Shown: in pieces, positions 3,209-56,862 of the stretch
How positions within the stretch are numbered: the first letter of the stretch is position 1
How the letters are laid out: every line of letters starts with the position of its first letter
Virus record (IMG/VR): IMGVR_UViG_3300035181_001618
Coordinates: 1 to 64,000 of that record
Length of the DNA: 64,000 nucleotides
Strand: one strand, 5' to 3'
Source of the DNA: a virus
Made by a program: the position numbers and the translations under genes
The notes under the pieces: generated by a model
What the model was told of the DNA's origin: nothing
Seen by the model: only the letters and a program-made list of their open reading frames with translations
The model's database searches: none

Positions 3209-3448
3209 TTAGAGGTGAGTGAACAGCGCCTTAACGGCGCTGACAGAGAGCCTGAAGCCCTCCAGCAAAGCGGAGCCTGCTGTCGTGATCCCTAACGCGA
3301 TGACATAGAATGAGAAGACGCTGCCTGAGATGACCGCAATGAACGCGCTGATGGCGTGCTCCTGCTTATCATCCCAGTACCTCCACCCGTGGAATAGGGC
3401 GAGGACTAGGCAGCCGACCATGAGGGCGTTAAAGATGATGAACAGCAT
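3209..3448 (-). CDS. Small membrane protein, 79 aa
   Basis: Start placed at 3448 (M-L-F-I-I-F-N). TATAAT ends exactly 6 bases upstream, so the predicted transcription start coincides with the ATG. Two or three hydrophobic segments (about residues 1-20, 38-60) indicate an inner-membrane protein. An upstream in-frame ATG at 3484 would lie inside the promoter. The function is unknown. Confidence 0.6.
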   Translation of the reverse strand: MLFIIFNALMVGCLVLALFHGWRYWDDKQEHAISAFIAVISGSVFSFYVIALGITTAGSALLEGFRLSVSAVKALFTHL

Positions 3449-3454
3449 GCCGTG

Positions 3455-3484
3455 ATTATACGGCCTTGCTGCGCACTCAAGCAA
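3455..3484 (-). promoter_or_regulatory. TTGCTT-18-TATAAT promoter abutting a start codon
   Basis: Minus-strand -35 TTGCTT (3484-3479), 18-base spacer and perfect -10 TATAAT (3460-3455), with 6 bases to the ATG at 3448. No Shine-Dalgarno is possible in that space. One of several predicted leaderless starts. Confidence 0.55.
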
Positions 3485-3616
3485 TTAACGGAAGGTCAGG
3501 ATCCACCACTTGAGCTTGAGCCAAAGCGTGTCTGGCCGGGCGGCACACGGCCCTGGATGGCCAGGCAGCCGGCCGCACGTCTGGCCCTTAGGCGGGAGGT
3601 CACAGCGCTGCTTCAT
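3485..3616 (-). CDS. Small Cys/Pro-rich protein, 43 aa
   Basis: The ATG overlaps the topoisomerase medium-subunit stop (TGATG), so translation is probably coupled. The product has three cysteines in a C-x7-C-x9-C arrangement around a GRLPGHPGPC motif, typical of tiny metal-binding phage proteins, then a Trp-rich basic tail. Zinc binding is inferred. Confidence 0.6.
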   Translation of the reverse strand: MKQRCDLPPKGQTCGRLPGHPGPCAARPDTLWLKLKWWILTFR

Positions 3617-5007
3617 CACTTGCCCTTCTTCTTGTCCTTGAGGACCTTCAGCCTAGGCTTGAGGTCATCCTTCAGGTCCAAGTCTTGAAGGTCCTTCAAG
3701 TAGAGGGACTCCTTGGTGCTCTTCTTGAAGAAGTCAATCAGCTGGAGCTGGAGCTGCACTTCGGCCAACAGCTTGTCGATGTTGTCCTGGGTCAGGTTGT
3801 AGATCTTGATGTCGAGCAGGTCCGTGACATGCTTGAAACCTTCGGCCGTCAGGAACTGCTCGAGGTCAACCTTCTTCATCTTCGAGAAGGCGCCTGCCAT
3901 GCCGTCAGTCAGGTACATCTCGATGAAGCGCACCTTCTCGTTCATCAGCTCGAGCCTAGCCTGCAGCTCAGCGATGCGAGCCTGGCGCCGGTCTTCGTAG
4001 CGCTCGAGACGGTACTCGAGGAAGGCGTCTACCAGAGCCTCCGGCGTCTTGAAGCACTTGAGCTTGCCGCTCGGCAGCCAAACGGTCAGGTTCTCGGTGT
4101 TCTTCGAGATCAGCTTCAGCTTGAGCAGCAGCTCAGCGTCCGTCATGTAGCCAGTGGTACGGGGCACGTCCAGGACAAAGCGGAAGCCGTTGACCGTGGA
4201 TTCGCTCTCGAAGCCCTTAATCAGCTCCAGATCCTGCAGGCCAAACAGCACCTCCTTGTAGGCGTCATGCTGAACGCCGATCGGCAGCTCGGTGACCACG
4301 ATCTTGGTCGAAGCCTCCTTCTCGAACCTGCCGGTGCATTGCACTTGGCCCGTCGCGAGGCGCTCAACTTTGCCTGTGTAGCCGCGGAACCAGGGAACCA
4401 GCTTGACGCTGGTCTTGCCGGTCTTCAGCTTGTCCGTGATGTACTTGCGGAGGTCCTCCGGGTTGTACGGGAAGATGTTGGTCGCGAAGCCTGTGCCCAT
4501 GCCGTTGGCGCCGTTAACCAGCACGTTAGGCAGGATCGGCAGGTAGCGCTCAGGCTCGATCTCCTCCTCATCTTCAGTCAGGTACTTGAGGATCAGGTCA
4601 TCGTCACGCTTGAAGAGCTTGCGGAAGCAGGGCTCGAGGTTGGTGAAGATGTAGCGTGTTGCGGCGTTGGCGTCGGACAGCCGTGACCCGAACTGCCCGA
4701 TGGGCATCAGGTAGTTGAGGTTGTTGGCGCCTGGGTAGTCCTGAGCCAGCTTGACGATGGTCGACTCGAGCGAGGCCTCGCCGTGGTGGTATGCAGAGAC
4801 GAGCGCGATAGCGGCCGCGAGCTGGGAGACCTTGATGCCGGTCTCGGGGATGGTGCTCGCCTTCTTCAGCGTGCCGAAGATGACCTTGCGCTGTGAGGGC
4901 TTGAAGCCGTCAATCAGGTCGGGGATGGCGCGGACGTTGGCGTGGACCGAGTACTCACGGACGTCGGTGCCAAAGAATTGTTCGATGTTGATGTGCTTAG
5001 TTGCCAT
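3616..5007 (-). CDS. DNA topoisomerase II medium subunit (T4 gp52-like)
   Basis: DNA breakage-reunion subunit of the phage type IIA topoisomerase. The winged-helix/tower region shows SAYHHGEASL and the AATRY motif, whose tyrosine (Y119) is the expected DNA-linking residue. GANGMGTGFATNIFPYNP is the usual GyrA/ParC-like motif. The C-terminal coiled-coil arm is present and ends in a Lys-rich tail. At 463 aa it matches T4 gp52 (442 aa). An AAGGAGA Shine-Dalgarno lies 6 bases before ATG 5007, 10 bases after the large-subunit stop. Confidence 0.93.
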   Translation of the reverse strand: MATKHINIEQFFGTDVREYSVHANVRAIPDLIDGFKPSQRKVIFGTLKKASTIPETGIKVSQLAAAIALVSAYHHGEASLESTIVKLAQDYPGANNLNYLMPIGQFGSRLSDANAATRYIFTNLEPCFRKLFKRDDDLILKYLTEDEEEIEPERYLPILPNVLVNGANGMGTGFATNIFPYNPEDLRKYITDKLKTGKTSVKLVPWFRGYTGKVERLATGQVQCTGRFEKEASTKIVVTELPIGVQHDAYKEVLFGLQDLELIKGFESESTVNGFRFVLDVPRTTGYMTDAELLLKLKLISKNTENLTVWLPSGKLKCFKTPEALVDAFLEYRLERYEDRRQARIAELQARLELMNEKVRFIEMYLTDGMAGAFSKMKKVDLEQFLTAEGFKHVTDLLDIKIYNLTQDNIDKLLAEVQLQLQLIDFFKKSTKESLYLKDLQDLDLKDDLKPRLKVLKDKKKGK

Positions 5008-5017
5008 GGCTGTCTCC

Positions 5018-6982
5018 TTAGATCACGATTGCGTCTACGCTCAAGTCGAGCCAGACTTTTCGACGATCTGAAGAGCCGTCCTCCTTGCCAAACACCAAGT
5101 TGATGATGTCGCCGTCCGCCTTGCTGTTAACCTCGAGCCTGACCAAGTGCTTGGGCAGGTCGGACAAGTACTCTTCGAACTCCTCAGGCGATGAGGTGCC
5201 CAGGCCTTTGTAGTACTTGAAGTTTTTGACCTTGTCAGCGTTGCCAGGCTTCTTGACCCACTGATCATACTCGTCCTGGTTGTCAAAGGAGACCGGTTCC
5301 TTGTTGTTGCCCTTCAGCCAGATCTTGATCATCGGGGTGTAGAACCGATGGATGACGCCGAGGGTGAACAGCTCAGGCCAGAACTTGTGGAGGTTGCTGC
5401 ACATGATGCCCGCGATGTGCGAGCCGTCGACGTCGGCGTCAGTGGTGATGACCAGGTGGCCGTAGCGCAGGTCCTTGACGGACTTGACAGGTACTCCAAC
5501 CTGGAGGCCCATAGCCGCACAGATGTTGACGAACTCGGTCTCCTCCTTGCGCTTGGCCTCCTTGTCCTTCTCCTCGATGCCCAGCAGCTTCTTCAACGTG
5601 ACCGAGTTGGCGTTCTGAGGCTTGCCTCGAAGAGCGAGCGCGCCCATGGTCTTGGCGTCGCGGCCCGACACGATGGCGCTCTTGGCAGAGTCACCTTCGG
5701 CGATGAACAAGTAGCACAGCTCAGGCTTCTTGCCAGCCAAGTTGGCGTCCTCGAGCTTGAGGATCCGCTTCGGGTTGGTCTTGTCCAGGTTCTTGTTCTT
5801 GTCTCGGACATCCTGCATCTCGCGAGCGAGCGCCTTGGCTTCGACCCAGTCCAACACGCGCTGGATGATCTCAGACTTGAGCAAGCGTTGGATCAGCTTC
5901 TCGGAGGCCTTGTAGACCGTCTTGTACTCCTTCGGCTCGGTGATCAAGTTCTCCTTGGTCTGCGAGTCGTAGCGAGGCTTGATGATGCGGGCGTTGACAA
6001 ACAGCTTCATGTGCTGCTTGATCTCAGCCGGCTTGACATCGACCTTGTGCTTGGTCTTGAAGTAGGCCCGCAGCTTGTCGATGACCTGGTCAATGACGTA
6101 GTCGATGTGCGTGCCGCCGATCACCGTCTCTGTGGCGTTGACAAAGCTGATCTGCTTGAAGCCTTCATCGGAGGCCGCGATGGCGACCTGCCAGTCAGGC
6201 GACTCGTCATACTCGAACAGGTCGGTGTAGAGCTTGACGTAGTCCTTGAAGGAGTCGATGCGGCAGCGACGGCCGTTGAAGTACACCTTCAGATGCGGGT
6301 TGCAGCCTGCCACGTCATAGACCCGCTTCATCAGCTTGGCGTAGTTGCCTTCGTCCAGGCTGGTGTCCAAGTGGGCGTAGTCGGGCGCGTAAGTGATGCG
6401 GGTGTAGCCTGGGCCTTCCAGCTCGATGATGGAGGGCTTGGTCTTCTCCATCATGTTCTTCGAGAAGATCTGCTTGAAGACCTTCTTGCCGTCGCACGTC
6501 TCAATAACGAACTTTGTACTGAAGATGTTGGTAAGCGAGGCGCCTTCACCGTTTTGGCCGGTGACATCGGTGTCTTCAGTGTCATCGAAGTTGGAGCCGG
6601 ACCGCAGGTAGCCGAGCACCAAGGTCGGGATGTACTCGTCATACTCGCTGTGCTTGATGACCGGCATGCCGCCGTTGTCCCAGACCGAGATGACGCCCGT
6701 TGTTTGGTCGATGTCGACCTTGATCGTGTCGAGATGCTTGCCCTCAGGTCGTTTGCTGTGGTCGACTGAGTTGGAGATGACCTCGTCGAAGAGCTTGAGG
6801 AGGCCTGGGTTCCAGGTCACCTCCTTGAGAAGCATCTTCGGATTGTCGTAACCGAGCGCGATGTCGGCGAGGTAAGTGTTGGCAGTGTGGGGCTTGACCG
6901 AGCCGATGTATCGCCCGGGGCGGAGCAGCACGTGCTCAACGTCGGTTAACCGCTTAAACTTTTGTTCGATTGACTTGCTCAT
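5018..6982 (-). CDS. DNA topoisomerase II large subunit (T4 gp39/gp60-like, single ORF)
   Basis: ATPase plus Toprim subunit. The GHKL ATPase fold shows DEVISNSVDH (residues 66-75), DNGGMPV (102-108) and GQNGEGA (142-148). The Toprim domain shows EGDSA (429-433) and DADVDG (515-520), then YKGLGTSSPEE. In T4 this subunit is split between genes 39 and 60; here it is one intact 654-aa frame. TATAAT ends 5 bases before the ATG with no ribosome site, so a leaderless message is predicted. Confidence 0.93.
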   Translation of the reverse strand: MSKSIEQKFKRLTDVEHVLLRPGRYIGSVKPHTANTYLADIALGYDNPKMLLKEVTWNPGLLKLFDEVISNSVDHSKRPEGKHLDTIKVDIDQTTGVISVWDNGGMPVIKHSEYDEYIPTLVLGYLRSGSNFDDTEDTDVTGQNGEGASLTNIFSTKFVIETCDGKKVFKQIFSKNMMEKTKPSIIELEGPGYTRITYAPDYAHLDTSLDEGNYAKLMKRVYDVAGCNPHLKVYFNGRRCRIDSFKDYVKLYTDLFEYDESPDWQVAIAASDEGFKQISFVNATETVIGGTHIDYVIDQVIDKLRAYFKTKHKVDVKPAEIKQHMKLFVNARIIKPRYDSQTKENLITEPKEYKTVYKASEKLIQRLLKSEIIQRVLDWVEAKALAREMQDVRDKNKNLDKTNPKRILKLEDANLAGKKPELCYLFIAEGDSAKSAIVSGRDAKTMGALALRGKPQNANSVTLKKLLGIEEKDKEAKRKEETEFVNICAAMGLQVGVPVKSVKDLRYGHLVITTDADVDGSHIAGIMCSNLHKFWPELFTLGVIHRFYTPMIKIWLKGNNKEPVSFDNQDEYDQWVKKPGNADKVKNFKYYKGLGTSSPEEFEEYLSDLPKHLVRLEVNSKADGDIINLVFGKEDGSSDRRKVWLDLSVDAIVI

Positions 6983-6987
6983 AAACC

Positions 6988-7053
6988 ATTATAAAAGGTA
7001 ATTAAGCGTGTATTTATAGCCAACCTGAGCCAGCCGCTTGACGGCACATTATA
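6988..7053 (-). promoter_or_regulatory. Triple promoter region for topoisomerase
   Basis: On the minus strand: TATAAT at 7053-7048, an exact T4 late element TATAAATA at 7018-7011, and TATAAT at 6993-6988, which is 5 bases from the topoisomerase ATG. No good -35 is seen for the outer -10. The stack suggests both early and late transcription of the topoisomerase operon; this is inferred. Confidence 0.6.
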
Positions 7054-8036: not shown

Positions 8037-8056
8037 GTGTTCCCTCTTTCTAGTTG

Positions 8057-8302: not shown

Positions 8303-8305
8303 TGC

Positions 8306-8696: not shown

Positions 8697-8724
8697 GTTT
8701 CACCTCAGTCGGTTCGGATGATGG

Positions 8725-8755: not shown

Positions 8756-8759
8756 CAGC

Positions 8760-8765
8760 TAAATA
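8760..8765 (+). promoter_or_regulatory. TAAATA late element 5 bases before an ATG
   Basis: TAAATAGTCAT precedes ATG 8771 on the plus strand. With T4 late-promoter geometry (+1 is 6 bases after the element) the transcript starts on the A of the ATG. No Shine-Dalgarno. Confidence 0.5.
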
Positions 8766-8770
8766 GTCAT

Positions 8771-9239
8771 ATGGACTATCAAAGATGCTACGATGCGCTG
8801 GTTCAACGGGCGTTGGATCGAACCCTTCCATCTGGAACGTACCTAGAACGGCATCACATTGTTCCTAAATGTGTAGGTGGTACGGATCAGCGAGATAACC
8901 TTGTTGACCTCCTTCCAGATGAGCATCTGTTCGCCCATCGCCTGCTGCGTCGCATCTACCCAAAGCACAATGCTCTCGCTTACCCCGTGGTGCTCATTGA
9001 GCAAGGGTAGGAAAGGAAGCATGAGCCGTCGGATCTATGCCATGGATCGTAAGAGAGTTGCTGAGGCGAATTCGATCCGTCCGCGTGGTCCCATCTCAGA
9101 TGCCCATCGAGCAGCTATTTCAAAGCCTAGAACCAAGCCTATCATAGGCACACCTTGCACCGATGAGCCGAAGAGCAAACACAGTTTACACGCTGAGTCA
9201 GGCCCTTGTCTTCACCATATGCTTAGCGAGAGCAGATGA
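8771..9239 (+). pseudogene. Frameshifted HNH homing endonuclease
   Basis: The first frame (8771-9010) encodes an HNH nuclease: ERHHIVPKCVGGTDQRDNLV with a following EHLFAHRLLRRIYP helix. It stops at TAG 9008 right after a GGG run (9005-9007). The +1 frame continues the family pattern: GRKGSMSRRIYAMDRKRVAEA then a NUMOD3-like GPISDAHRAAIS segment, to 9239. Losing one G joins the two. It lies opposite in direction to all neighbours, as an inserted mobile gene would. A +1 recoding event at GGG-TAG is an alternative. Confidence 0.7.
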
Positions 9240-9240
9240 A

Positions 9241-9560: not shown

Positions 9561-9577
9561 TCGGGCCGACGTCGCTT

Positions 9578-11493: not shown

Positions 11494-11653
11494 TTAGAAA
11501 CCAGCGGCGAGCTGGAACTTTGTCAAAACATCCTCATATGTCTCAAAGACACATGCGCCGACATGGGCTGAACGCCGGCACGACCTTCTTGATCATGGGC
11601 ATCATGATCTTCTTCAAAGCCGCGGGGAGGGTTGGAGCGTTCGGGTCAGCCAT
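11494..11653 (-). pseudogene. Short gene with one-base frameshift (about 52 aa if restored)
   Basis: ATG 11653 opens M-A-D-P-N-A-P-T-L-P and a basic helix ALKKIMMPMIKKVVPA, then a GGG run (11565-11567, CCC on the coding strand) puts it out of frame with stop at 11543. Removing one C restores a sensible end, FETYEDVLTKFQLAAGF, with stop TAA at 11494. TATAAT ends 7 bases before the ATG and there is no Shine-Dalgarno. The opening resembles a segment of T4-type capsid proteins only superficially. Confidence 0.5.
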
Positions 11654-11660
11654 GGCCGAG

Positions 11661-11666
11661 ATTATA
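11661..11666 (-). promoter_or_regulatory. TATAAT -10 abutting a start codon
   Basis: Perfect minus-strand -10 TATAAT, 7 bases before ATG 11653. The -35 region is poor (TGTAAA at 17 bases). Predicted leaderless start. Confidence 0.45.
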
Positions 11667-12227: not shown

Positions 12228-12858
12228 ATTTCACCATCTCAAAGAATATGGGTGTCGCTGACTCAGGCCATTTCCACGGCCCGCCTTCATACAACCTGAT
12301 CCACTTAGCCGGCGTCTTCCAACGCGCGCCCTCTTTAACAGCGGCAGCTTCATAGCGCACCGGCGTAAAAGTGTACGATATGTGAATCTGAATCTGATTT
12401 TGAATACCGACAAAGTACTCGCTGCCTACTTTGAGGTCACCGTGCTTGACTCTGGCTCCAAAGCTGTACCAGCGGTCATTAAAGCCAAGAGCCCAGTCAC
12501 CTGTCTTTAGCAGCTTGAGCATACTGCTGCCGAAGCTTTTGCACTCTTCAAGTCGCCACCCGAGCGTATAACGTAAAATTTGACGTGTTAGTCTTAAGAC
12601 ATAGCGCTCATCAGTTGTACGCCAGCTATTGCCTCTGCTGTTAATGAGCACCGTGTCAGGGTCGCTATCATAGCTATGCACCCACGCTTCAACATGAGCC
12701 GTCCTGTTTTTAGGATTTCGTGCAATGATAAGAATGCCTCCGTCATACGGCGCAAGCTTGATATCGAGCAAGCCGTCGGATGCGTCGATGAACGCTTGCT
12801 GAAGCTTCAGAGCCTCGGCCCTTAGTTTGTTTGATTCGAGAAGGGTGACGAGTTTCAT
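12220..12858 (-). CDS. Hypothetical protein with ALKLQQ-type N-terminal helix, 212 aa
   Basis: The N-terminal helix (residues 13-28, RAEALKLQQAFIDASD) recurs in degenerate genes at 52626 and 54146 and at the end of the gene at 12883. The remainder is Trp/aromatic-rich. A minus-strand TAAATA (12871-12866) ends 7 bases before the ATG, giving a late, nearly leaderless start. Unknown function. Confidence 0.6.
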   Translation of the reverse strand: MKLVTLLESNKLRAEALKLQQAFIDASDGLLDIKLAPYDGGILIIARNPKNRTAHVEAWVHSYDSDPDTVLINSRGNSWRTTDERYVLRLTRQILRYTLGWRLEECKSFGSSMLKLLKTGDWALGFNDRWYSFGARVKHGDLKVGSEYFVGIQNQIQIHISYTFTPVRYEAAAVKEGARWKTPAKWIRLYEGGPWKWPESATPIFFEMVKYG

Positions 12859-12865
12859 GCTGGCT

Positions 12866-12878
12866 TATTTAATAAATA
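12866..12878. promoter_or_regulatory. Bidirectional TAAATA late promoter
   Basis: TATTTAATAAATA holds a leftward TAAATA (12871-12866, 7 bases from ATG 12858) and a rightward TAAATA (12873-12878, 4 bases from ATG 12883). The whole divergent intergenic region is 24 bases, leaving no room for a Shine-Dalgarno on either side. Confidence 0.6.
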
Positions 12879-12882
12879 GCCA

Positions 12883-13701
12883 ATGCTGCTTTCAACACTA
12901 TGCGAAACTGTCACAAACAAAGTCGCCGTGCGTGCGGTAATGTCAGCCGCTTTTACGAACATTGACGAAGGTGATGACTTTGTCATTGAAGCTGATGGCT
13001 CGATCAGCCCGATAAAGGACATCGGAGATCGAGCGATCACGCTACCTCAGCACTGGGAGGAGGCCAAGGTCAAGTTCAATGCCTGGCCAGGCCTAACTAT
13101 TACCGTAACCAAAGGCAGCAAGCTCAAGTCATTAGCCAATCTACCTCCGCAGCTAAGAAACATTAAGCTATACGGTTGTGCAGGCTTAGCTAACATGGCT
13201 CATGGGCCACTCGAAGTTGAAAATTTAAAGCTTGTCGACTGTGGCATGACATCATTAACAGGCGCTCCGCTTGTCAATGATGAGCTGCAGCTGATCAACA
13301 TGCACATGCTGACAACGCTGAAAGGTCTCGAAGACCACAAGCCTGCCGAGTTGCACATCAACAATTGCAATGGCTTGATTAGCCTCGAAAGCATGCCCAA
13401 AGAGCTGCATATGCTAGTAGTTGACGGGTGTGAGAAGCTCGAAGTAATTCGATTCCCGCGTACAACTGTAATGCAGGGTTCGGGACTACTCTTTGTCGGC
13501 GCGAATGAGGCTCACAAGCTCTCGCCTAGGCTGGTGCTCGTGCCAGGCTTGAGGCAAATTGTCTTTCAAGGCATCGGCTACCGCGACGACATCCTCAAGC
13601 TCTTTAACGAGCACCTACAGATAGAGAACAAGCGGCAGGCGTTCTTGAAGCTTCAGCACGCGCTGATCGACGCCAACATGAATCACATGGCTGATCAGTA
13701 A
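12883..13701 (+). CDS. Leucine-rich-repeat-like protein, 272 aa
   Basis: Residues about 75-200 show repeated L-x-x-L/I-x-L-x-x-C/N units (LRNIKLYGCAGLANM, ENLKLVDCGMTSLTG, AELHINNCNGLISLES, HMLVVDGCEKLEVI), as in solenoid proteins of about 20-22-residue repeats. The C-terminus carries a FLKLQHALIDAN helix like the gene on its left. It is the only intact rightward gene in the first 29 kb and has a late element 4 bases from its ATG. Binding role inferred only from the repeats. Confidence 0.65.
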   Translation: MLLSTLCETVTNKVAVRAVMSAAFTNIDEGDDFVIEADGSISPIKDIGDRAITLPQHWEEAKVKFNAWPGLTITVTKGSKLKSLANLPPQLRNIKLYGCAGLANMAHGPLEVENLKLVDCGMTSLTGAPLVNDELQLINMHMLTTLKGLEDHKPAELHINNCNGLISLESMPKELHMLVVDGCEKLEVIRFPRTTVMQGSGLLFVGANEAHKLSPRLVLVPGLRQIVFQGIGYRDDILKLFNEHLQIENKRQAFLKLQHALIDANMNHMADQ

Positions 13702-14845: not shown

Positions 14846-15135
14846 CGCCGCTTTCCCTTGCGCTCAACGGTCTCGCGAGTGCTCAGGTAGAACGCCGGGT
14901 CCTTGTCCTTGACCCACTCGATGAAGACCTGAATCGGCTCTTGGGCGCGCAGCTCATCCCATGTGTAAAACCGCTTCTCCAGCTCCTTTTCGGTGTAGGT
15001 GGCGTGGATCTTGCGGTGGCAGATCTTGTGGATGGGCTCCTGCACCTTGCCCTTACGAGACTTCGGCACCAGATGATGCCGGTCGATGTTCTCGAGGCCG
15101 AGCGTACGGTGGCAGAGCGGGCAGAGGTCAGTCAC
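14842..15135 (-). CDS. HNH endonuclease family protein, 97 aa
   Basis: Compact HNH protein: CPLCHRTL (zinc cysteines, residues 5-12), IDRHHLVPKSRKG (catalytic His) and ICHRKIH further on. GTG 15135 is preferred over the frame from 15228 because the HNH family starts with such a Cys knuckle and because a TTTACA-17-TATAAT promoter ends exactly 6 bases before this GTG. Could be a free-standing nuclease rather than a homing enzyme. Confidence 0.75.
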   Translation of the reverse strand: MTDLCPLCHRTLGLENIDRHHLVPKSRKGKVQEPIHKICHRKIHATYTEKELEKRFYTWDELRAQEPIQVFIEWVKDKDPAFYLSTRETVERKGKRR

Positions 15136-15141
15136 AGTTGG

Positions 15142-15170
15142 ATTATATTCAGCGCCGAGACTAATGTAAA
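15142..15170 (-). promoter_or_regulatory. Strong promoter TTTACA-17-TATAAT abutting GTG start
   Basis: -35 TTTACA (15170-15165), 17-base spacer, -10 TATAAT (15147-15142), then 6 bases to GTG 15135. The predicted +1 is the G of the start codon. The best-formed sigma70-type promoter seen in the window. Confidence 0.65.
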
Positions 15171-15202
15171 CCGTGACACCAGCTTCGGAGGCACATCGCT
15201 CG

Positions 15203-18532: not shown

Positions 18533-18708
18533 GATTGCTCCAATCAGGAAGAACGGTGCTGCCGCTTGGGTGGCACGATACTTTTGAATCAGCTCGTGAA
18601 TCTTGCCAATGAGCAGCATTGGGATGTCCACGGCAAAGAAGAGGATGATGAGGATGCCGAAGAAACATAGTCGTCAGAGCTACAGCCGATGAACTGGACA
18701 GTAGTAGA
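18533..18708 (-). other. Gap upstream of NAMPT with a hydrophobic open frame
   Basis: The NAMPT frame stays open upstream to about 18672, encoding a hydrophobic run (CFFGILIILFFAVDIPMLLI). Only a GTG (18631) is available as a start and it lacks a ribosome site; an out-of-frame ATG sits at 18668. It may be a separate membrane micro-protein or a fossil extension. No promoter seen. Confidence 0.3.
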
Positions 18709-25271: not shown

Positions 25272-26114
25272 TTAAGAGTTGAGCCAGGCGGTGAAGTCGC
25301 CCGGCTTGGAATCCTTGCTGATGTTACCTAGCAGGTAGATTACCTCGCTAGCGTCACGGATGCGGGGTACTTCGATGGGCGTGAAGGCCGAGCCTGCATT
25401 GATTTCCTTCACCATGTCGAAGTGCCTCTCGTAGTAGTGGAACGAGTCGGCGATGTGGTGGTAAGAGCCCATCTGCAGGTCAGGGTAAGCGAAGTCACGC
25501 AGACAGACGTAGACCATCTCTTGAATCAACGAGAAAGCCGGCGCGTCATTGCCCATGCCGAAGACAGCGTCCTGACTGCGCATGTGCACGCTCATCTTTA
25601 GCTCGTTGTCGCGGATGCGGAAGTTGAGGGCGTAGGTGCAAGGAAAGTCCTTGGTCGCTGGGTTGAGCAGGTGGCTGCGATTGAGGATGGTCGCCGAGGC
25701 ACGGCGAGAGTCCTTGTCGCGCTGCAGCTCAGCGATGATCGCCGAGAACTGGCTCTTGTGCGCCAACGGAACTCCGATGCTCAACGGCGTGCGCCACTGA
25801 TCATCACCACGACCGAAGACGTGAGCGCCGTAGTGCGAGTTGATGGTGCCGTCGGGGTTGGGCAGCTCTTGCCAGAGAGAGGCGGCGTCCACGATGCTGA
25901 GGTCAAACGGGTCGGCCTTCAGGTACCAGAGAAGCTCTTTCTTGACGTAGCCAAGCTTCAGCTTGCGAGCGTCAAAGTTGGCGAAGCGAGCATAAGGCGG
26001 CAGCTCGTAAGCATAGTTCTCGACCTCGATGACCTTCTGGCCACGGGGTGAGCACTCTTGGCCGGCAGCGACATCAGCGTAGATCTTGCGGAATGCTTGT
26101 TCAATTTCAGACAT
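25272..26114 (-). CDS. Thymidylate synthase / dCMP-hydroxymethylase family protein
   Basis: Family motifs: DFPCT with the catalytic Cys159, RSQD (179-182) and GSYHHIADSFHYY (216-228), equivalent to the dUMP-binding elements of ThyA. Where thymidylate synthases have Asn in LPFN, this protein has MGND with Asp190. In T4 dCMP hydroxymethylase Asp replaces that Asn and selects cytosine, so this may make a modified pyrimidine. That is inference from one residue. TACAAT ends 7 bases before ATG 26114 with no Shine-Dalgarno. Confidence 0.8.
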   Translation of the reverse strand: MSEIEQAFRKIYADVAAGQECSPRGQKVIEVENYAYELPPYARFANFDARKLKLGYVKKELLWYLKADPFDLSIVDAASLWQELPNPDGTINSHYGAHVFGRGDDQWRTPLSIGVPLAHKSQFSAIIAELQRDKDSRRASATILNRSHLLNPATKDFPCTYALNFRIRDNELKMSVHMRSQDAVFGMGNDAPAFSLIQEMVYVCLRDFAYPDLQMGSYHHIADSFHYYERHFDMVKEINAGSAFTPIEVPRIRDASEVIYLLGNISKDSKPGDFTAWLNS

Positions 26115-26121
26115 AGATTTG

Positions 26122-26127
26122 ATTGTA
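26122..26127 (-). promoter_or_regulatory. TACAAT -10 abutting the ThyA-family start
   Basis: Minus-strand -10 TACAAT, 7 bases before ATG 26114, with no convincing -35. The intervening CAAATCT cannot act as a ribosome site. Predicted leaderless or near-leaderless. Confidence 0.4.
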
Positions 26128-37330: not shown

Positions 37331-38310
37331 TGGCAACAACTTTCTATGACAGCGATGCCTCCGCGCCGACTCTGACAAGCAGCGCAGGTTCGTTCATCGC
37401 GCTGCTTGACGCATGCTTGGTCACAGGGTACGGTTCAAAAACAGGCCTTGGTTGGACCAAGGACTATTCAGGTACCAATGTTGCTGTTTACCGGGCACCA
37501 GGCGGTAACAGGCACTACATCCGAGTTGACGATACTGACACGCAAGTTGTACGCGTGGTAGGTTTTGAGTCAATGACCGGATTGAGCACAGGCTTTAACC
37601 AGTTCCCAACTGATGCGCAGGTATCGGGTGGCTTGTACTTGCGAAAGACCAGCGGCGGCACGTCGGGTTGGATCCTAGCGGGTAATGACCGTTGCTTCTA
37701 CTTCTTCCCTGAGGTTGGAAATGCGTGGGCTGCAGGTTCTACAACCGGTTCATCATGCGGACAGTTCTTCTTTGGTGACTTTATTAGCTATCGTTCTGGT
37801 GACCAGTTCAACACAATGATCATCGGCTCAACTTCGAGCACCGCTGGCATGGGTAACTTTGCACAGCTAAACTCAAGCGGCTCACCGGCTGCAGGTCATC
37901 TTGGCCACTACATCTGCCGCGGCATCCTGCAGCTAAAGAGGTCAATCGGTTGCTATAAGTCAGCCATGCGGTACCTTGCCAGCAATAACTACTCGGACTT
38001 TGCCCTGGGCGTGTGGAACGGCTTTGTGACATCGTATCCTGATCCTGTCTCTGGAATGATCACGATGCAACGGATTCAAATTTCTGAACGTGGGTTGCAA
38101 CAAAATCCTAACCTAGCCACGGACATAATTGTGGCGCGCGGCTACCTGCCTGGCTTGTGGGCTCCGCAACAGACTGGCTTCAACCACGGTGATACGTTCA
38201 ATGGCACCGCTTCACAGACCTATCTCGTTGTCACCGCTTACACGCGCAACAACGCGCTAACTACAACTGTCACCGGGAAAGCCTTTCTCGAGACTAGCAA
38301 TACCTGGTAA
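37330..38310 (+). CDS. Tandem virion paralog 2, 326 aa
   Basis: Second copy: APTLTSSAGSFIALLDACLV, TGYGS, GLGWTKDYSGTN, CGQFFFGDFISYRSGDQFN and GHYICRG. The last two motifs are shared exactly in style with copy 3. Same length class and orientation, so a tandem duplication. Unknown function. Confidence 0.7.
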   Translation: MATTFYDSDASAPTLTSSAGSFIALLDACLVTGYGSKTGLGWTKDYSGTNVAVYRAPGGNRHYIRVDDTDTQVVRVVGFESMTGLSTGFNQFPTDAQVSGGLYLRKTSGGTSGWILAGNDRCFYFFPEVGNAWAAGSTTGSSCGQFFFGDFISYRSGDQFNTMIIGSTSSTAGMGNFAQLNSSGSPAAGHLGHYICRGILQLKRSIGCYKSAMRYLASNNYSDFALGVWNGFVTSYPDPVSGMITMQRIQISERGLQQNPNLATDIIVARGYLPGLWAPQQTGFNHGDTFNGTASQTYLVVTAYTRNNALTTTVTGKAFLETSNTW

Positions 38311-38313
38311 ATA
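38308..38313 (+). promoter_or_regulatory. TAAATA late element overlapping a stop codon
   Basis: The stop TAA of paralog 2 begins TAAATA. An AGGAGA ribosome site follows (38318-38323) before ATG 38328, so this message has a very short leader carrying the Shine-Dalgarno at its 5' end. Confidence 0.55.
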
Positions 38314-38327
38314 GCTTAGGAGATCAT

Positions 38328-39302
38328 ATGACTGTTCGCGTTTATCGCTCGTCCGACGCAGGTGCGCCGACCCTTTCCGGCACAACCGGTAGCCTTCTAG
38401 CCTTGCTAGATTCGGTCCTCATTAGCGGCTATGGCTCGTCTACTGGTTCTGGTTGGACCAAGCCGTATAGCGCTACCAATATCGCTGTTTACCGTACTGC
38501 AGGCGGCAATCAACGATACCTGCGCCTGGATGACTCAAACGCTACGCCAGCGCGTTTCCACGGCTATGAAACGATGTCAAGCGACTCAGTGGGAGTCAAT
38601 AATTTTTCACAAGACCTAGGCACGTCATTCTCGCAAGCGGCTGGCTACCCGATCATGAAGAGCAGCACCGCTGATGCTACCGCTCGTGCGTGGGTAATCA
38701 TTACATCGGCTACCGCGATGTACATGTTCATCGAGCCAACCTCGACCCCGACTACGTGGGAGGCTTCGACCAACACCACAAACTCGAGCAACGGGCAGTT
38801 CTTCTTCGGTGACTTCATTAGCTACCGTCCGGGCGACACATACAACACGGCTATCTTCGGGCCTGTGAACACAACGGCCGGTACCGGACAGTTCGGCTCT
38901 TGCTCAAACAGCATCTCCTCATCGGCAGCCAGCGGGCACTACATCTGCCGTGGCTACTTGGGCCAAGGTCAGGGCGGCGTTAAGTTCCACAAGGGGCTTC
39001 CAGGCCAGTATGCCAGCGTAACTACGATGGGCGCGTCTAGCTCGTCAAACACGTATCCCGACCCACTGACAGGCGGCATCTTACTAACGTCGGTTGAGCT
39101 TGCTGAGATTGTGGCAAGCAGCTACCATGTCGTGCGCGGGCGGATGCCAGGCATGTGGGCTCCGATCTCGTCTCTCGCCGGCTCGCACGGCGACATCATC
39201 ACCGGCACCGGCGTAGTAGCTGGCAAGACCCTGCTTTGCGTTGTTGTGTACACAGGCAGCACAGCAGGTCGGTGCTTCATTGAAATCAGCGATACCTGGT
39301 AA
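38328..39302 (+). CDS. Tandem virion paralog 3, 324 aa
   Basis: Third copy: APTLSGTTGSLLALLDSVLI, SGYGS, GWTKPYSATN, GQFFFGDFISYRPGDTYN and GHYICRGYLGQ. Closest to copies 1 and 2 in the first 60 residues and in the central motifs. Has its own late promoter and Shine-Dalgarno. Confidence 0.7.
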   Translation: MTVRVYRSSDAGAPTLSGTTGSLLALLDSVLISGYGSSTGSGWTKPYSATNIAVYRTAGGNQRYLRLDDSNATPARFHGYETMSSDSVGVNNFSQDLGTSFSQAAGYPIMKSSTADATARAWVIITSATAMYMFIEPTSTPTTWEASTNTTNSSNGQFFFGDFISYRPGDTYNTAIFGPVNTTAGTGQFGSCSNSISSSAASGHYICRGYLGQGQGGVKFHKGLPGQYASVTTMGASSSSNTYPDPLTGGILLTSVELAEIVASSYHVVRGRMPGMWAPISSLAGSHGDIITGTGVVAGKTLLCVVVYTGSTAGRCFIEISDTW

Positions 39303-40714: not shown

Positions 40715-40720
40715 TAAATA
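40715..40720 (+). promoter_or_regulatory. TAAATA late element 4 bases before an ATG
   Basis: GTAGTAAATAGTCG precedes ATG 40725; the predicted +1 is within one base of the ATG. There is no Shine-Dalgarno. This drives the largest gene in the window. Confidence 0.55.
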
Positions 40721-40724
40721 GTCG

Positions 40725-43700
40725 ATGACCGCGACTACCTACTACGCCGTAGATACAAACTCGGGCGGAACGTTCCCCGTTACCAGCCTTGCAGCCGCTA
40801 AGCGAGCCGAGTTCATGACGGCTCTCGCCACCTCCAAGGTGGAGACCTTTGAGTTCTCAATTGCGGGTAGCAGGCCGTCTGATGACTTCACGCTTTACCT
40901 CTTCGGCAGCACGTGCCAGCTGACACAAGCCGCGCCGATTGACGGCAACGTGCAAGGCATTAAGACCGTTGGGCAAGACTTCCCAGGTCGGTTCAACACG
41001 ACCATTGACTCAGGTAGCGGTCTGCTTGAAGACGGTAAGTGGTGGCAGTCATCGGGTGAGTTCACGCTAAAGTTTACTAGCCACACCCAAGCCTTTGGCT
41101 TCTACGGAACTGACTTCGGCGACCTAGGAGCGGCCGGCGGCACGGTCAAGCTCAGCTTCTACAGCAACGGCTTCCCAGTTGACCTCAACGTTGAAGTAGG
41201 CCCTGATACCAGCGGGATCAACGCAACCCTGCTGTTCTTCGGCTACACGAACGATGTCCACCCGTTCAACGAGATTCGATTCACGGTTACACAAGGGCCT
41301 GGTACCACAGCTGGCAACGAGCAGCTCGTTGGCTTCGATGACATGGTATACGGCACGCTTGACAGCATCAAGCTGCCCTATAACGGCGTAGGCTCCTTTG
41401 TTAACGCTCCGACGCAGTGCATCACATCCTCACCGCCTGAGGACCAGAACGTAGCTTACATCAACGTGCCTGCAGGTTTCAAGGATCGTTGGTCGGTGTG
41501 GACCTGCCTTTCAGTAAGCAACGCAACGCCGATCATTAGCATCTACTCGGGTGTTAACGGCACTGGCACGTTGCTCGCCGGACCTAGCGGCGTAGCGGCA
41601 GGTCTCTTGAATGCGTTCTACCAAACTGTGTTTTACTTCTCGGGGGTTGCTCGCTCGATTAAGGTTACAACAGGCAAAGCCAGCTTCAACAATGAGGTCT
41701 TCTTTGACCACATGGAATTCGGCACACCGCCTGACTTGCCTGACGCTCCTATTCTCACGTTTAACTGGGAGCTAGGCGGCTTGTTGACAACAAGCAGTCA
41801 GTCTCAATGGGACGGTGTTAAGTACGGCATGGACTTTGAGGGCCTCATTCCAGGAGCTAATGCCTCTGCCGGCACCTATGCACCTGTCAGCGTGGGCTCG
41901 TTCTACGATAGCTTGTACCCCGGCACCGTCTTTACTAATGCGGTAGCTGTGCGCTCCAAGGCTACCGGCGGCACGGCCCAGTTCAACGTTCGCACGCTCG
42001 ACTCACCGTCAGGCGCGGTGCTCAACTTAGGCAAAACGGCGCTGAAAGTTGCGACCGGTCAGGCGAGCATGACTATTGCGTTGCCGAGCACAAGCACCAA
42101 AGGTGCTATCTCGTTCTACTATGCATCAGCCTCTCCGGTTACTTTGATCGCTGGCGTCGGCACTAAAACATTGCCTGCTACAGGCACTTGCAGCTTGCCT
42201 GACGTTGACAATGTCTACTGCCAGTGGAAGCTTTGCAGGCTTGAGAGCGAAAACGCTACGATCAACTCGCTGACTATCTCAAGCGCTGATCCGAACATGA
42301 TGGTCGATAACCTGACCAATGGCTACCCGATCCCGCTGTCAGGTGCGCTGCCGACAGTTGATAACCTGGTTGACGACTACTTCAACAATGGCACAGATTC
42401 GCGTGGCATTTCAGGCCCGCTAGTACCGTCTGGACCACCGTACCCGCACATTTACGGCGTGCAGGCTCCTAGCTGGGTTCGTGCATGCTATTCTGACGGC
42501 CCTGAGATTGCGCCTGACTTTTACTACAAGTCAGGCGAGGGCATCTACCCAGGCATCTACAGCTGGACCGCGCTGCAGAACCTTAGCAATGACCCAAAGT
42601 ACATCAATGTAGTTGACGGCTTCATCAATGAATGCTCGCTGTTTGTGCTCATGGGTACAATTGTAGGCGTCTACTCAGGCTTGAACGGTACAGGTACATT
42701 ACTGCAAAGTACACCCGACGTGCAGCACAGCTATACAGATGGAGGCTACACTAAGTTTACATTTGGGGGTTGGGCCCGTTCGATTGCCTTTGACACCGAT
42801 CCCGCTATTGTTGATGGCTTGCGCTTTGGCTATTCATCAACAAACTCGATTATTCCCACTGTACCTTCGCCTGAAATTTTTGACTCAGATTCCACAAACA
42901 TTGTAGAAGGTGTAAACCAACTAACCAATGACAGTGAAACACCGATCATTTTCCTACCCGACGGTTTAATCTATCGAGACACCCAATTCTCCCCATCGGC
43001 TAGCCATTGGATGCGCGAGCCAACGCCGTATTCAAACGTAGGTACGTTAGTACAGTTCTCATTTGACGGGCTAACAGACGGCGCAACCGCGTTCCCGAAC
43101 AGCGGCACTTTAGGCGGTACCTGGAGCTCAACAGGTTCAAACTGTTCAGCGAGCACTAATGCTTCAAAGTGGGGCACGTCATCGCTCCACGTGACTCCGA
43201 ACAACAGTGAGCATGCCATCAAGCTGATTTGGCCGACAATGTTCTACTTGCGATCGCAAGTAGGCACGCTTGAAGCTTGGGTGCGTCCTGAAGTAGGTGC
43301 TTCCGAGCCGTACGGTAAAACTGCCATCATGTATTGGATCTACGGCTATGGTAACACCAGCACGCCGTGGAACCAGGGTGCCAGCAGCACAGGCTCGGCT
43401 TACACACCAGGCATGGGCATCATCTACGCTCATGCTAGTACGACACCAGGTCAAACAGTGCTCGAAGCCTGGCTCAATCAACGCTTCATCGGCAGCATAT
43501 CCGTTGCTAATAGCCAGTTCCACCATGTAGCATTTACATTGAATGCCGGGTCTGGTGGTCAGTTCATGACCTTCTTTGTTAACGGTGCGCAGGTTGCAAC
43601 CGGCTCGGTTACCGGCGTTAACTACTCGAACCCTGACTTCTCGCTCGTTGTCGTTGGTCAGTCTGACCGAACAGGCACCTTCAGCTACTACCTGTCTGAC

Positions 43701-46530: not shown

Positions 46531-46558
46531 GCCGCTTTAGCGGCCTTCATATTAGAAT
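46531..46558 (+). promoter_or_regulatory. Hairpin followed by TAGAAT element
   Basis: GCCGC-TTTA-GCGGC (46531-46544) directly after the stop at 46528 could end transcription, though no U-run follows. TAGAAT (46553-46558) lies 8 bases before ATG 46567, without a Shine-Dalgarno. Confidence 0.4.
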
Positions 46559-46566
46559 AGCATATC

Positions 46567-47058
46567 ATGACAAATATCGTCAAGCGAGACGCATTCAGCG
46601 TCACCTTTACCGGCGCGCCGGAGCTAGCCGCTCTCGAGTCGCACGTGCTCGCCGTTGACCTCGGCACCGAGCTCTTCAACGAAGCGGGCGGCACTGATCA
46701 CCGGACCCACACGCTCATCGTCTGGCTCGAGGATGATGAGGCAAACCAGGTCATGGGAGCCATTCGCGCCTGGGTCAAAAAGGGCAACGCGCAGTTCACC
46801 TTGAGCATGAAGGTGCTGAAAGAAGGCGGCGGCGTCAAGGACCTCTACGTGTTTGAGCACGCAATGCTTAATGCCGTGCAGCACTCAATCTTTACTCGCG
46901 AGAGCCAAGACGAGCGTTTTGAGGTTCAACTGGGCAGCCATAAGTACATTAGCCACATCGGGAAGCTTAAGCAGCCAGAGGCTCGGGAGCTGTCAGCTAA
47001 GCTCCTACAGATCGCGTTCGTTAGCGTTGATCATCACATCACAGACAATATGCAATGA
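46567..47058 (+). CDS. Hypothetical protein, 163 aa, possibly virion
   Basis: Mixed alpha/beta sequence (FSVTFTGAPELAALESHV, THTLIVWLEDDEANQVMG). Recalls phage tail-tube proteins in composition only. No clear family. Last gene of the first virion block. Confidence 0.5.
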   Translation: MTNIVKRDAFSVTFTGAPELAALESHVLAVDLGTELFNEAGGTDHRTHTLIVWLEDDEANQVMGAIRAWVKKGNAQFTLSMKVLKEGGGVKDLYVFEHAMLNAVQHSIFTRESQDERFEVQLGSHKYISHIGKLKQPEARELSAKLLQIAFVSVDHHITDNMQ

Positions 47059-49912: not shown

Positions 49913-49915
49913 CGC

Positions 49916-54751: not shown

Positions 54752-54756
54752 CTCAC

Positions 54757-55050: not shown

Positions 55051-55095
55051 GCTGGTTCGGGTGATGCGCTACCCTTAAGTGCGAACTTAAAACCT

Positions 55096-55123
55096 AAAGG
55101 CCTGGTCAGTTGACCAGGCCTTT
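55096..55123 (+). terminator. Strong intrinsic terminator
   Basis: 12-bp perfect stem AAAGGCCTGGTC / GACCAGGCCTTT with loop AGTT, followed by TACTTTGC. It isolates the 97-aa gene from the fibre block. Confidence 0.75.
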
Positions 55124-55138
55124 TACTTTGCTCGATAA

Positions 55139-55144
55139 TAAATA
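55139..55144 (+). promoter_or_regulatory. TAAATA late element 5 bases before an ATG
   Basis: TAAATAGCAGC precedes ATG 55150; the predicted +1 is the A of the ATG. No Shine-Dalgarno. Starts the second virion block. Confidence 0.55.
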
Positions 55145-55149
55145 GCAGC

Positions 55150-56862
55150 ATGTCCCTCAATACCAACCTCGTAGAATACTGGCCGCTAACGACTAACAAT
55201 CTGGTCGGTTCATTCGGAGGCAACACCTTCTCACAAGGTGGCGGCTTGACATGGGACTCGACAAATTCATGCTGGACCGTAACTTCAGCTACGAATCCGT
55301 ACTTGCTGTGCACCACGATCACATTGGGCACGCCGTTTACTATAGCTGTACAGGCTTACGTTAACGGTGGTGCAAGCGGTGACTACACGTTCATCGGTTA
55401 CACGACAAGCGCAGGTAACTATTGGCAGCTTTATCAAACCGGTAGCACAAACACAGCAAGCGCTAAGACGCGTAACGGTGGCACCGCGGATGAAGCGCTA
55501 AGCGCCGCTCTTTCTGGAGCTGTTTATAACAACACGGCGTGTGTATACGGCGGTGCTACAAGTCGTCAGGTATACCTGGGTGGCACGCTGTCATCCGCTA
55601 ATACAACATCGGTTACACCTACGGGTAGCTCGAAGTACCTAACTATCGGCTCGATCTTTGACGGTACTACAGCGTCGGGCAATGTTAACACCGGCTGGCG
55701 TTTTAAGAATGTCGCTGTTTGGTCGCGTACGCTCACGCAAGCTGAGCTCGACGCATACTTTGCTGCGCCTGCTACAGTTCTCGGACCGACGATCAACAAC
55801 CAGCCATCAAGCGTAACTGTAACAGCAGGCGTTACGGCTACATTTACTGTTACCGCGACCGCAAATGCAGGCTCGCTGACTTATCAATGGCAGTGCAGCG
55901 TCAATAGCGGTTCGAGCTGGTCAAATGTCTCAACAGGTACTGGTGGCACGACAGCCTCTTATACAACCGCTGCAGCGACCGTTACAGGTGGCAGCGCAAA
56001 CAACGGCGACTGGTACCAGTGCGTAGTCACGGATAGCAACGGGTCGTCGACAACAACGGCTGCTACCTTGACAGTGGTTGTCGGCTTAAAGCCTGTTGTG
56101 CTTAAGAATGGTCGCTTGACCGTTATGCAAAGCGGAGACTTGATCGACCCGGCAGTCTTACCGTCTTCAAGCGGCGGTACAGGCATCAACGCTCGCGTGG
56201 CGTCAACAGCTAACCTGACCCTAACAGCTCCTGGCCCGACAATTGACGGTGTCATCATGGTGAGCGGTGACATGGTGCTGGTTAAGAATCAGACCACCGG
56301 CTCTCAAAACGGCGTCTACACTTACAACGGCTCAGCGTCAACGATGACGCGCATCTCAGGCCTGGATTCAAGCGCCGAAGCGATCACTGGCTTGCTGGTA
56401 ACCGTGGCTGAAGGCACCGCAAACGCCACAACGGTGTGGATGCTAAGCACCTACCAGCCGATCACCCTTAACACCACGTCCCTCGCCTTCACGCAGATCA
56501 GCCAGAACGGCACAGTCATAATCTCGACTGATGTGACCGTTGACTTCGGCACGATCCCAACTTATGCTAAGCAGTTCTCAATCTCCCTTGCAGGCCTACA
56601 GGTTGGTCAGCGTGTGCAGTGTGTCACCTCAGGCTACACACCAATCGGCGTCTACTTTGACGAGCATGAGTTCGGCGTGCTGCAATGGGTCGGCAAGGTC
56701 GTAACCGCTGACACGCTGCTGCTGCTAGGCACGTCTACAAGCCCGATCAAAGGCCAACGCATCTGCCAAGTGACGGCGAAGGTCGGCACATCGCAAATGT
56801 TCATCACGTCGGGTCAACCGACGGTTCCTGACTTCACGCTCCAAGCGGCTAACATCATCTAA
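55150..56862 (+). CDS. LamG/Ig-domain fibre protein, 570 aa
   Basis: Domains in order: LamG-like (about residues 1-205; VEYWPLTTNN, WRFKNVAVWSRTLTQAELDA), Ig-like (210-315; QPSSVTVTAGVTATFTVTA, WYQCVVTDSNG) and a phage-fibre region with VLVKNQTTGSQNGVYTYNG (from about 320). Typical of phage fibre or surface-binding proteins. Binds carbohydrate or host surface by inference. Confidence 0.75.
   Translation: MSLNTNLVEYWPLTTNNLVGSFGGNTFSQGGGLTWDSTNSCWTVTSATNPYLLCTTITLGTPFTIAVQAYVNGGASGDYTFIGYTTSAGNYWQLYQTGSTNTASAKTRNGGTADEALSAALSGAVYNNTACVYGGATSRQVYLGGTLSSANTTSVTPTGSSKYLTIGSIFDGTTASGNVNTGWRFKNVAVWSRTLTQAELDAYFAAPATVLGPTINNQPSSVTVTAGVTATFTVTATANAGSLTYQWQCSVNSGSSWSNVSTGTGGTTASYTTAAATVTGGSANNGDWYQCVVTDSNGSSTTTAATLTVVVGLKPVVLKNGRLTVMQSGDLIDPAVLPSSSGGTGINARVASTANLTLTAPGPTIDGVIMVSGDMVLVKNQTTGSQNGVYTYNGSASTMTRISGLDSSAEAITGLLVTVAEGTANATTVWMLSTYQPITLNTTSLAFTQISQNGTVIISTDVTVDFGTIPTYAKQFSISLAGLQVGQRVQCVTSGYTPIGVYFDEHEFGVLQWVGKVVTADTLLLLGTSTSPIKGQRICQVTAKVGTSQMFITSGQPTVPDFTLQAANII

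Follow-up and report, generated by a model that had tools for sequence, protein, structure and literature searches.

Leaderless initiation predicted at the T4-type promoters of a jumbo-phage clade

Does a T4-related phage begin many of its messenger RNAs at the start codon itself, or within a few bases of it? Most known examples of leaderless translation come from bacteria, archaea and isolated phage genes. The question is raised by a 64,000-base stretch of viral DNA (the window), which comprises bases 1–64000 of the 133,943-base IMG/VR virus record IMGVR_UViG_3300035181_001618 (the record, GC 0.557). A sequence-only reading of the window had listed first genes in which a -10 box or the late promoter core TAAATA ends so close to the start codon that no room is left for a Shine-Dalgarno (SD) site. 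All 11 listed elements were found at their positions, with the gaps to the start codons that had been given (11/11); gap here means the number of bases between the end of the element and the start codon. The arrangement very likely reflects leaderless initiation that is built into the T4-type promoters of a clade of jumbo phages. The proposal is strongly supported for the late promoters, where fixed spacing at the T4 late +1, starts matched by homologs, a contrast in SD use, the late sigma factor gp55 and recurrence in relatives all point to it.

The spacing of the late core was evaluated by a test that is independent of gene calls. For each hexamer occurring at least 8 times, we counted the ATG codons that open at least 50 codons at a gap of 4–7. 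In the record, TAAATA ranked first of 4070 hexamers, with 13 of its 41 occurrences at these gaps against 0.82 expected (p 8e-13). Over 247 kb of the window virus, that is the record plus two sister records, it ranked first of 4090, with 28/87 against 1.76 expected (p 5.5e-26). The counts at gaps 0 to 8 were 0, 0, 0, 0, 7, 13, 6, 2 and 2, with the mode at 5. The sister record G013 was added after the hypothesis had been fixed, and this part alone gave 9/30 against 0.63 expected. Stretches of 20 kb were analysed separately, with sites at the joins being lost. A comparison with shuffled DNA, proposed by the sequence-only reading, came out in favor of both promoter classes. It used the first ATG of each open reading frame (ORF) of at least 50 codons and 200 dinucleotide shuffles of the upstream 40-mers. 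In the window, TAAATA stood at gap 4–7 before 5 of 215 first ATGs (shuffled mean 0.17, maximum 2), and TANAAT at gap 5–8 before 4 of 215 (mean 0.66, maximum 3). For the 451 first ATGs of the whole record, the counts were 13 against 0.20 and 6 against 1.17, respectively. None of the 200 shuffles reached any of these four real counts. There is very strong evidence that the spacing of the late class lies far beyond chance.

The preferred gap agrees with the position at which T4 late transcription begins. According to PMC1524935, the T4 late consensus TATAAATA spans -13 to -6, and therefore +1 lies five bases past the core, which is the modal gap of the window virus. The late core of the window virus is TAAATA, usually TAAATAG; the two bases before it are mostly GC, TG, CC, GG or CA, in place of the leading TA of TATAAATA (-13, -12). 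The same paper describes the -13 T as poorly conserved in most T4-like phages too, and gives CTAAATA for Aeh1 (PMC1524935).

The start codons themselves appear to be correctly placed. Each of the 16 late candidates of the record has an in-frame stop 3–93 bases 5' of its start codon, and 15 of them have no in-frame upstream start codon, the exception being 105704 (TTG). A simple gene caller blind to upstream signals chose the same start for 9/16 and missed or shortened the other 7; gene calling of this kind thus loses or shortens predicted leaderless late genes, which affects annotation. Across the window virus, late genes were split by gap into 32 at gap 4–8 (including gap 8 and GTG starts) and 24 at gap 9–39, the latter being referred to as leadered. 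Homologs in the searched relatives were found for 18 of the 32 genes at gap 4–8, and the homolog start codon matched for 14 of these 18, a match being an alignment from residue 1–4 with ATG, GTG or TTG within 9 bases. Several matched homologs have an SD site at that codon, which speaks for a correctly assigned start and for a difference confined to the leader.

The two groups differ in SD use. An SD-like core was present within -17 to -4 in 1/32 late genes at gap 4–8 versus 12/24 leadered late genes (Fisher 5e-5), a contrast that is partly built in, because at gap 4–8 the promoter core occupies much of the searched stretch. SD-like cores occur at 12% of random positions in the record and at about 30% of called starts. 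The firm part of the contrast is that the leadered late genes exceed the random rate, while the genes at gap 4–8 are practically without SD sites. A wider contrast in the sequence-only reading, by which genes inside operons use SD sites or overlaps instead, was not borne out: SD-like cores precede 24/74 downstream genes and 19/63 first or widely spaced genes.

The late sigma factor gp55 is encoded by the same virus, at L222:2855-3436 in sister record G008 (phrog_234, E 4.6e-27), and is also present in G013–G016. G008 overlaps the record with 99.996–100% identity and extends about 35 kb beyond it. G013 extends the window virus about 78 kb past G008; its DNA was compared only over the 103-bp L310/L221 overlap contained in the 247-kb set (99.0%), and its gp23 and gp6 are 100% identical. 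The record carries T4-type genes for an RNA ligase/tail-fibre attachment protein, two topoisomerase II subunits, a DnaB-like helicase, a DNA polymerase and a ribonucleotide reductase, and stops within a baseplate gene. The sister records add, besides gp55, the major capsid protein, portal, head protease, gp46/47-type nuclease subunits and a gp6-type baseplate wedge protein. Taken together, T4-type genes were found for capsid and portal, for the protease, and for baseplate and replication. We thus take the window virus for a T4-related jumbo-type phage with a genome split over several records. By the capsid protein gp23, the nearest isolates are Xanthomonas phage XacN1 (51%) and Stenotrophomonas phage CM1 (48.5%); the nearest is XacN1 by gp55 (44%) and Xanthomonas phage X1 by topoisomerase (47%). 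Judged by these protein matches, the window virus is a jumbo T4-related phage whose nearest isolate is XacN1 by capsid protein and gp55, a wording preferable to the earlier "T4-like phage". A gp23 match at 48895 was judged spurious, as it spans 28 profile positions only. An actinobacterial host, suggested by one weak match to phage DSL-LC01, was dropped because DSL-LC01 is without any gap-5 site and because capsid protein and gp55 point to XacN1. A gp23 scan of bacterial genomes found no relative.

Early promoters of T4 type combine a GTTTAC-like -35 box with a TANNAT -10 box, and with a usual -10 box a +1 on the A of ATG corresponds to a gap of about 6, the region in which the near-start early sites of the window virus and the TATAAT peaks given below are found. 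We scanned for a GTTTAC-like -35, 16–18 bases and TANNAT, a pattern picked after looking. The window virus has 16 such sites. Four lie at gap 6–8, one of them being 15135 and the other three belonging to the sister records; a further nine lie at gap 16–36, and three are without a start within 60 bases. Six of the 19 sites in G015 lie at gap 5–8, with one more at gap 1; near-start sites number 4/28 in G014 (gap 6–7) and 2/46 in G016. T4 has one such site near a start among 38 (gap 4), and the remaining measured gaps are at least 13. Matching of the -35 by TTGACA was uninformative, and the GTTTAC-anchored scan was informative for the window virus and G015, not for XacN1. The -10 elements were also tested alone at gap 5–7, in the record plus the approximately 35-kb sister record. 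TANAAT gave 8/125 against 1.86 expected (p 6e-4), TACAAT 4/47 against 0.70, and TATAAT 2/15 against 0.22, or 4/15 against 0.62 if GTG and 30-codon ORFs were admitted. TATAAT at gap 5–7 reached 5/22 against 0.26 expected in G015, and it peaks at gap 6–7 in XacN1 (12/172, p 8e-6), G002 (p 8e-4) and G001 (p 0.04). TAGAAT gained no statistical support as a leaderless early element (0/27 at gap 5–7; the listed case 46567, at gap 8, lies outside that test). In conclusion, an early class exists, modest and weaker than the late class. The claim of leaderless early starts was right in kind, as -35/-10 promoters do lie 6–8 bases from starts (5–8 in G015). A GTTTAC-like -35 accompanies just one of the six listed early cases, 15135; the -10 box of 6982 has a counterpart in G015, and 46567 is statistically unsupported.

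The late spacing recurs in relatives. TAAATA peaks at gap 4–7 in the records G001 (22/117), G002 (31/145) and G003 (21/100), in XacN1 (14/117 without the right-hand repeat, 17/132 with both repeated ends) and in Pelagibacter phage HTVC008M (15/185, 12 of them at gap 5). Among relatives with a 75–79% identical capsid protein, the counts were 18/85 in G015, where TAAATA ranks first of 4083 hexamers, and 11/141 in G014 (p 2e-5). The sequence read covered 320 of 389 kb of G015, 340 of 345 kb of G014 and 360.0 of 360.2 kb of G016. No peak at these gaps was found in the controls T4 (3/225), Syn9 (1/132) and X1 (1/48). Raw gap-5 counts, for which no ORF filter was applied, show no excess over the reversed pattern in XaC1 (2 vs 11), CBB (4 vs 10), P-SSM2 (6 vs 6) and G005 (9 vs 9), and little in SCTP-2 (24 vs 19), Atu_ph07 (15 vs 9) and CM1 (8 vs 5). 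The site lists of HTVC008M and XacN1 were likewise unfiltered. The viewed annotated stretch of HTVC008M (5500–32500) contains 8 of its 14 gap-5 sites, and all 8 are annotated coding-sequence starts; they include those of the tape measure, the DNA end protector, the head closure protein, the baseplate tail tube cap and one baseplate wedge gene. In XacN1, three of the four gap-5 sites inside 120000–165000 are annotated starts. Identical contexts were counted once in the final G001, G002, G003, XacN1 and HTVC008M counts, in a pooled set from which the loci of the window virus were left out, and in the relatives with a 50–59% identical capsid protein, L215–L217 and L009–L010; they were counted each time in the test of the record, T4, Syn9 and X1, the early-element test, and the 247-kb and G014–G016 tests.

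Conservation of the leaderless arrangement between orthologs is lower than expected. The clearest case is gp6, at gap 6 in L304 and L306 (80–86% identity) and at gap 4 in L302, L305 and G015, and leadered in XacN1 and G002. Other genes at gap 4–8 are leadered in relatives, often with an SD site. The head protease is leadered in the window virus and leaderless in none of the aligned relatives. These comparisons suggest that leaders come and go gene by gene; according to PMC3160421, initiation mode also switches between orthologs of bacterial leaderless genes. As the leader switches while a nearby TAAATA is often kept, leaderless initiation looks interchangeable with SD initiation in this clade.

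We propose the following model. The window virus would use gp55-type late promoters, and at about a third of the sites (28/87 by the strict count) the core TAAATA stands 4–7 bases before the start, most often 5. Late transcription would then begin at the AUG or within about 2 bases of it, and ribosomes would bind the 5'-terminal AUG of the leaderless mRNA directly, without an SD site, by 70S-type initiation. The remaining late genes have the core 10–38 bases before the start, along with an SD site in half of the cases, and placement near the start extends to a smaller number of early promoters of T4 type (GTTTAC-like, 16–18 bp, TANNAT). The spacing, its enrichment, the SD sites at leadered late genes, the agreement of start codons with homologs and the presence of gp55 are shown by the data. 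That the RNA 5' ends lie at the AUG, that initiation is of the 70S type and that the phage gains an advantage are all inferred from the sequence. The advantage might consist in compact, mobile promoter-start units or in independence from SD-based control.

Could the near-start TAAATA mean something else? In a dense genome, promoters squeezed into short gaps may fall near starts by compactness or chance, and the TAA of some TAAATA elements is indeed the stop codon of the preceding gene (e.g., 32989). Yet chance placement is hard to square with 28/87 sites against 1.76 expected, none at gaps 0–3 and a sharp mode at 5; moreover, 0/200 shuffles reached the real count, and the compact genomes of T4 and Syn9 have no such peak. 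For the late class this explanation is statistically refuted and its probability is close to negligible; the refutation does not extend to individual early sites, 46567 and 11653 among them. SD sites are weakly used in the record, SD-like cores being present at about 30% of called starts and 12% of random positions, which might rather suggest that TAAATA near an AUG is an A/T-rich translation-initiation signal, as in bacteria without SD sites, and not a promoter. However, the signal is specific to one hexamer, first of 4090, that equals the T4 late core; the same hexamer also stands 10–38 bases before leadered starts, 12/24 of them with SD sites, and the virus encodes gp55. We regard this reading as highly improbable.

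A further alternative accepts the promoters as real and has the genes translated mainly from upstream readthrough transcripts, or has transcription start further upstream, the RNA from the near-start TAAATA being minor or non-productive. Some sites do lie inside or just past a same-strand upstream gene (e.g., 107190), and the expected +1 of leadered promoters shows no preference for purines, which fits this explanation as well. Readthrough, however, supplies no SD site at the starts at gap 4–8 (1/32) and leaves the fixed spacing, with nothing at gaps 0–3, unexplained. Moreover, some sites are divergent and have no same-strand upstream gene (e.g., 12858/12883). We therefore consider it unlikely.

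Several observations nevertheless weigh against leaderless initiation as a feature of T4-type promoters in this clade. Concerning the machinery, no gp55 lies within the 133.9-kb record itself, though it was sought there, the co-activator gp33 was not identified in the window virus, and the sliding clamp gp45 is represented by a weak match only (clamp-like, record 89200–89919, E 6e-4). Concerning the promoters, a purine occupies the expected +1 in only 10/24 leadered late promoters, which leaves the exact +1 uncertain by a base or two, and starts at gap 4 require a +1 one base early. Over the first 42 bases, genes at gap 4–8 are less structured (-4.67) than the remaining called genes (-6.60; p 0.012). 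Leadered late genes are equally loose (-4.21), so that 5' structure fails to tell the two late classes apart. Among relatives, G016 has only a weak excess (8/155, p 0.008) despite its 75–79% capsid identity, the pooled relatives with a 50–59% identical capsid protein have none (6/277 against 5.07 expected), and the counts at TAAATA gap 4–7 are 0/60 in L215–L217 and 0/13 in L009–L010. Neither gp55 nor gp23 was found at the sensitivity used in the records G001 and G003, despite their strong peaks; these records may be fragments or diverged. Only 5 of the 18 genes with homologs have a leaderless counterpart in any relative, and 132581 among them is weak. On the early side, the TATAAT signal over 247 kb is modest (3/27, rank 43 of 4090), and 0/7 of the -35-anchored early sites of XacN1 are followed by a start. 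From the counts, leaderless initiation looks more used in some clade members (the window virus, G015) than in others (G016).

A broader scheme can be put forward tentatively, and we give it somewhat less than an even chance. The clade may run leaderless and SD-led initiation in parallel via the same late sigma factor and early promoters, the position of the core assigning each gene to one or the other as leaders are gained and lost. The 14-bp TAAATA-N5-ATG would then be a minimal cassette of promoter and start, with which homing endonucleases and injected head proteins could bring along late expression of their own; it might also free late genes from the control of SD-led initiation.

The listed sites of the window can be described individually. 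The five late cores are given in order of position. TAAATA at 8760–8765 precedes ATG 8771 at gap 5 (8760..8773, plus strand), which opens a 79-residue HNH-like protein (Pfam HNH, E 0.0015, below the Pfam cut-off). On the minus strand, TAAATA at 12866–12871 precedes ATG 12858 at gap 7 (12856..12871; 212 residues, N-terminus MKLVTLLE), and on the plus strand TAAATA at 12873–12878 precedes ATG 12883 at gap 4 (12873..12885; 272 residues). These two cores (12866–12878) stand back to back on opposite strands with 1 bp between them, each feeding a predicted leaderless gene; pairs of divergent gap-5 sites were likewise seen in HTVC008M (18914/18932), G002, G003, G005 and G007. The large virion-like proteins follow, both on the plus strand: TAAATA 40715–40720, gap 4, ATG 40725 (40715..40727; 1524 residues, laminin-G/lectin-like domain), and TAAATA 55139–55144, gap 5, ATG 55150 (55139..55152; 570 residues, head-decoration or tail-fibre-like). 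Two leadered late promoters on the plus strand serve as contrast, namely TAAATA at gap 14 with AGGAG before ATG 38328 (38308..38330) and TAAATA at gap 20 with GAGG before ATG 62213 (62187..62215).

The early sites are, with one exception, on the minus strand. The best equipped consists of GTTTAC 15166–15171, an 18-bp spacer and TATAAT 15142–15147 at gap 6 from GTG 15135 (15133..15171; 97 residues). TATAAT 6988–6993 lies at gap 5 from ATG 6982 of the topoisomerase II large subunit (6980..6993), without a clear -35; the G015 ortholog has TATAAT at gap 6 from its ATG. This gene also has TAAATA 28 bases upstream, which puts it into the set of 24 leadered late genes as well. TATAAT 3455–3460 precedes ATG 3448 at gap 6 (3446..3460; 79 residues), again without a clear -35, and TATAAT 11661–11666, at gap 7 from ATG 11653 (11651..11666), is weak and opens only 36 codons. 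TACAAT 26122–26127 lies at gap 7 from ATG 26114 of a thymidylate synthase-like gene (26112..26127), whose G016 homolog has AGGAG upstream instead. On the plus strand, TAGAAT 46553–46558 stands at gap 8 from ATG 46567 (46553..46569; 163 residues) and has no statistical support as a leaderless promoter; in its L021 homolog (46% identical), TAGGAT stands at gap 6.

The late genes at gap 4–8 include gp6, the two large proteins 40725 and 55150, and 132581, which is also large. HNH-like, NUMOD3 or homing-endonuclease-like genes, each following immediately on a late promoter of its own (gap 4–6), lie at 8771 (plus strand, window), 73534 (plus) and 117220 (minus) in the record, and L221:17997 (minus) in G008. 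A short N-terminal stretch closed by two hydrophobic residues and E, a pattern picked after looking, is found in 11/32 late genes at gap 4–8, versus 2/24 leadered late genes (p 0.028) and 11/137 called genes (p 4e-4). Such LLE/IIE/IFE-like N-termini belong to 12858, 12883 and 55150 in the window, 84179, 105704 and 102477 in the record, and L221:721, L222:3560, L222:10273, L308:3799 and L309:11380 in the sister records. They resemble the T4 capsid-targeting sequence, which is cut by the head protease. By this likeness, some products of genes at gap 4–8 may be head proteins injected with the DNA, and the LLE-type leaderless products may be regarded as candidate internal head proteins of this kind.

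Other features of the record were noted. At 73533–73536, a CATG palindrome holds the overlapping start codons of the divergent ORFs 73534 (plus strand) and 72009–73535 (minus strand). The protein of 72009–73535 resembles ribosomal protein S6 glutaminyl transferase (phrog_2599) and might modify the ribosome in a phage whose predicted translation starts are unusual. Genes for a tRNA nucleotidyltransferase and a tRNA-His guanylyltransferase lie at 65661–66716 and 67724–68551; despite these two tRNA-processing genes, ARAGORN found no tRNA in the 133.9-kb record. Two neighbouring genes (17081–18619 and 18709–19896), for a nicotinamide phosphoribosyltransferase and a nucleotidyltransferase/NUDIX protein, are likely a nicotinamide adenine dinucleotide (NAD) salvage pair, and an HslV-type peptidase-like gene (89987–90526, phrog_1040) adjoins the DNA polymerase gene.

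Leaderless genes as such are well known, lambda cI being the classic case. No report of leaderless late promoters in T4-related phages was found in one open-access library, of which titles, abstract openings and passages were covered; the main text of the XacN1 paper has none of the words promoter, Shine-Dalgarno and leaderless. If true, the finding would add a lytic phage group with leaderless late promoters, including that of the structural baseplate gene gp6, and would provide a strong natural system for the ribosome start on leaderless mRNA and for gene-by-gene viral choice of initiation mode. The cultured carriers XacN1 and HTVC008M make this reading testable.

How does the predicted system compare with known ones? 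Lambda cI is a single gene of a temperate phage. Its mRNA starts at the AUG, as two papers state (PMC3160421, PMC9031893); the window virus, by contrast, is predicted to have a genome-wide habit at lytic late promoters. Bacterial TA-led leaderless genes, as described by Zheng et al. 2011 (PMC3160421), share a -10-type signal about 10–12 bp before the start and the lack of an SD site, and differ in that they use the cellular TANNNT -10 box in cellular genomes, whereas the window virus would use mainly the phage gp55 late core. T4 late promoters (gp55/gp33/gp45; TATAAATA) share the TAAATA core, gp55 and the expected +1 five bases after the core; however, the T4 core is not placed beside the AUG (3/225 at gap 4–7), and SD hexamers head the T4 hexamer list. 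X1, the closest isolate by topoisomerase, is without the peak. XacN1, closest by gp23 and gp55, has both the late peak (14/117) and the TATAAT peak at gap 6–7 (12/172), but in it SD hexamers outrank TAAATA and none of the seven -35-anchored early sites is near a start; it is also described as having many tRNA genes, against none found in the 133.9-kb record. HTVC008M, assigned to the Kyanoviridae by its record, differs in having the peak in the late class only (TATAAT 3/273), and resembles the window virus in that annotated starts of its late genes have TAAATA, mostly as TAAATAG, at gap 5.

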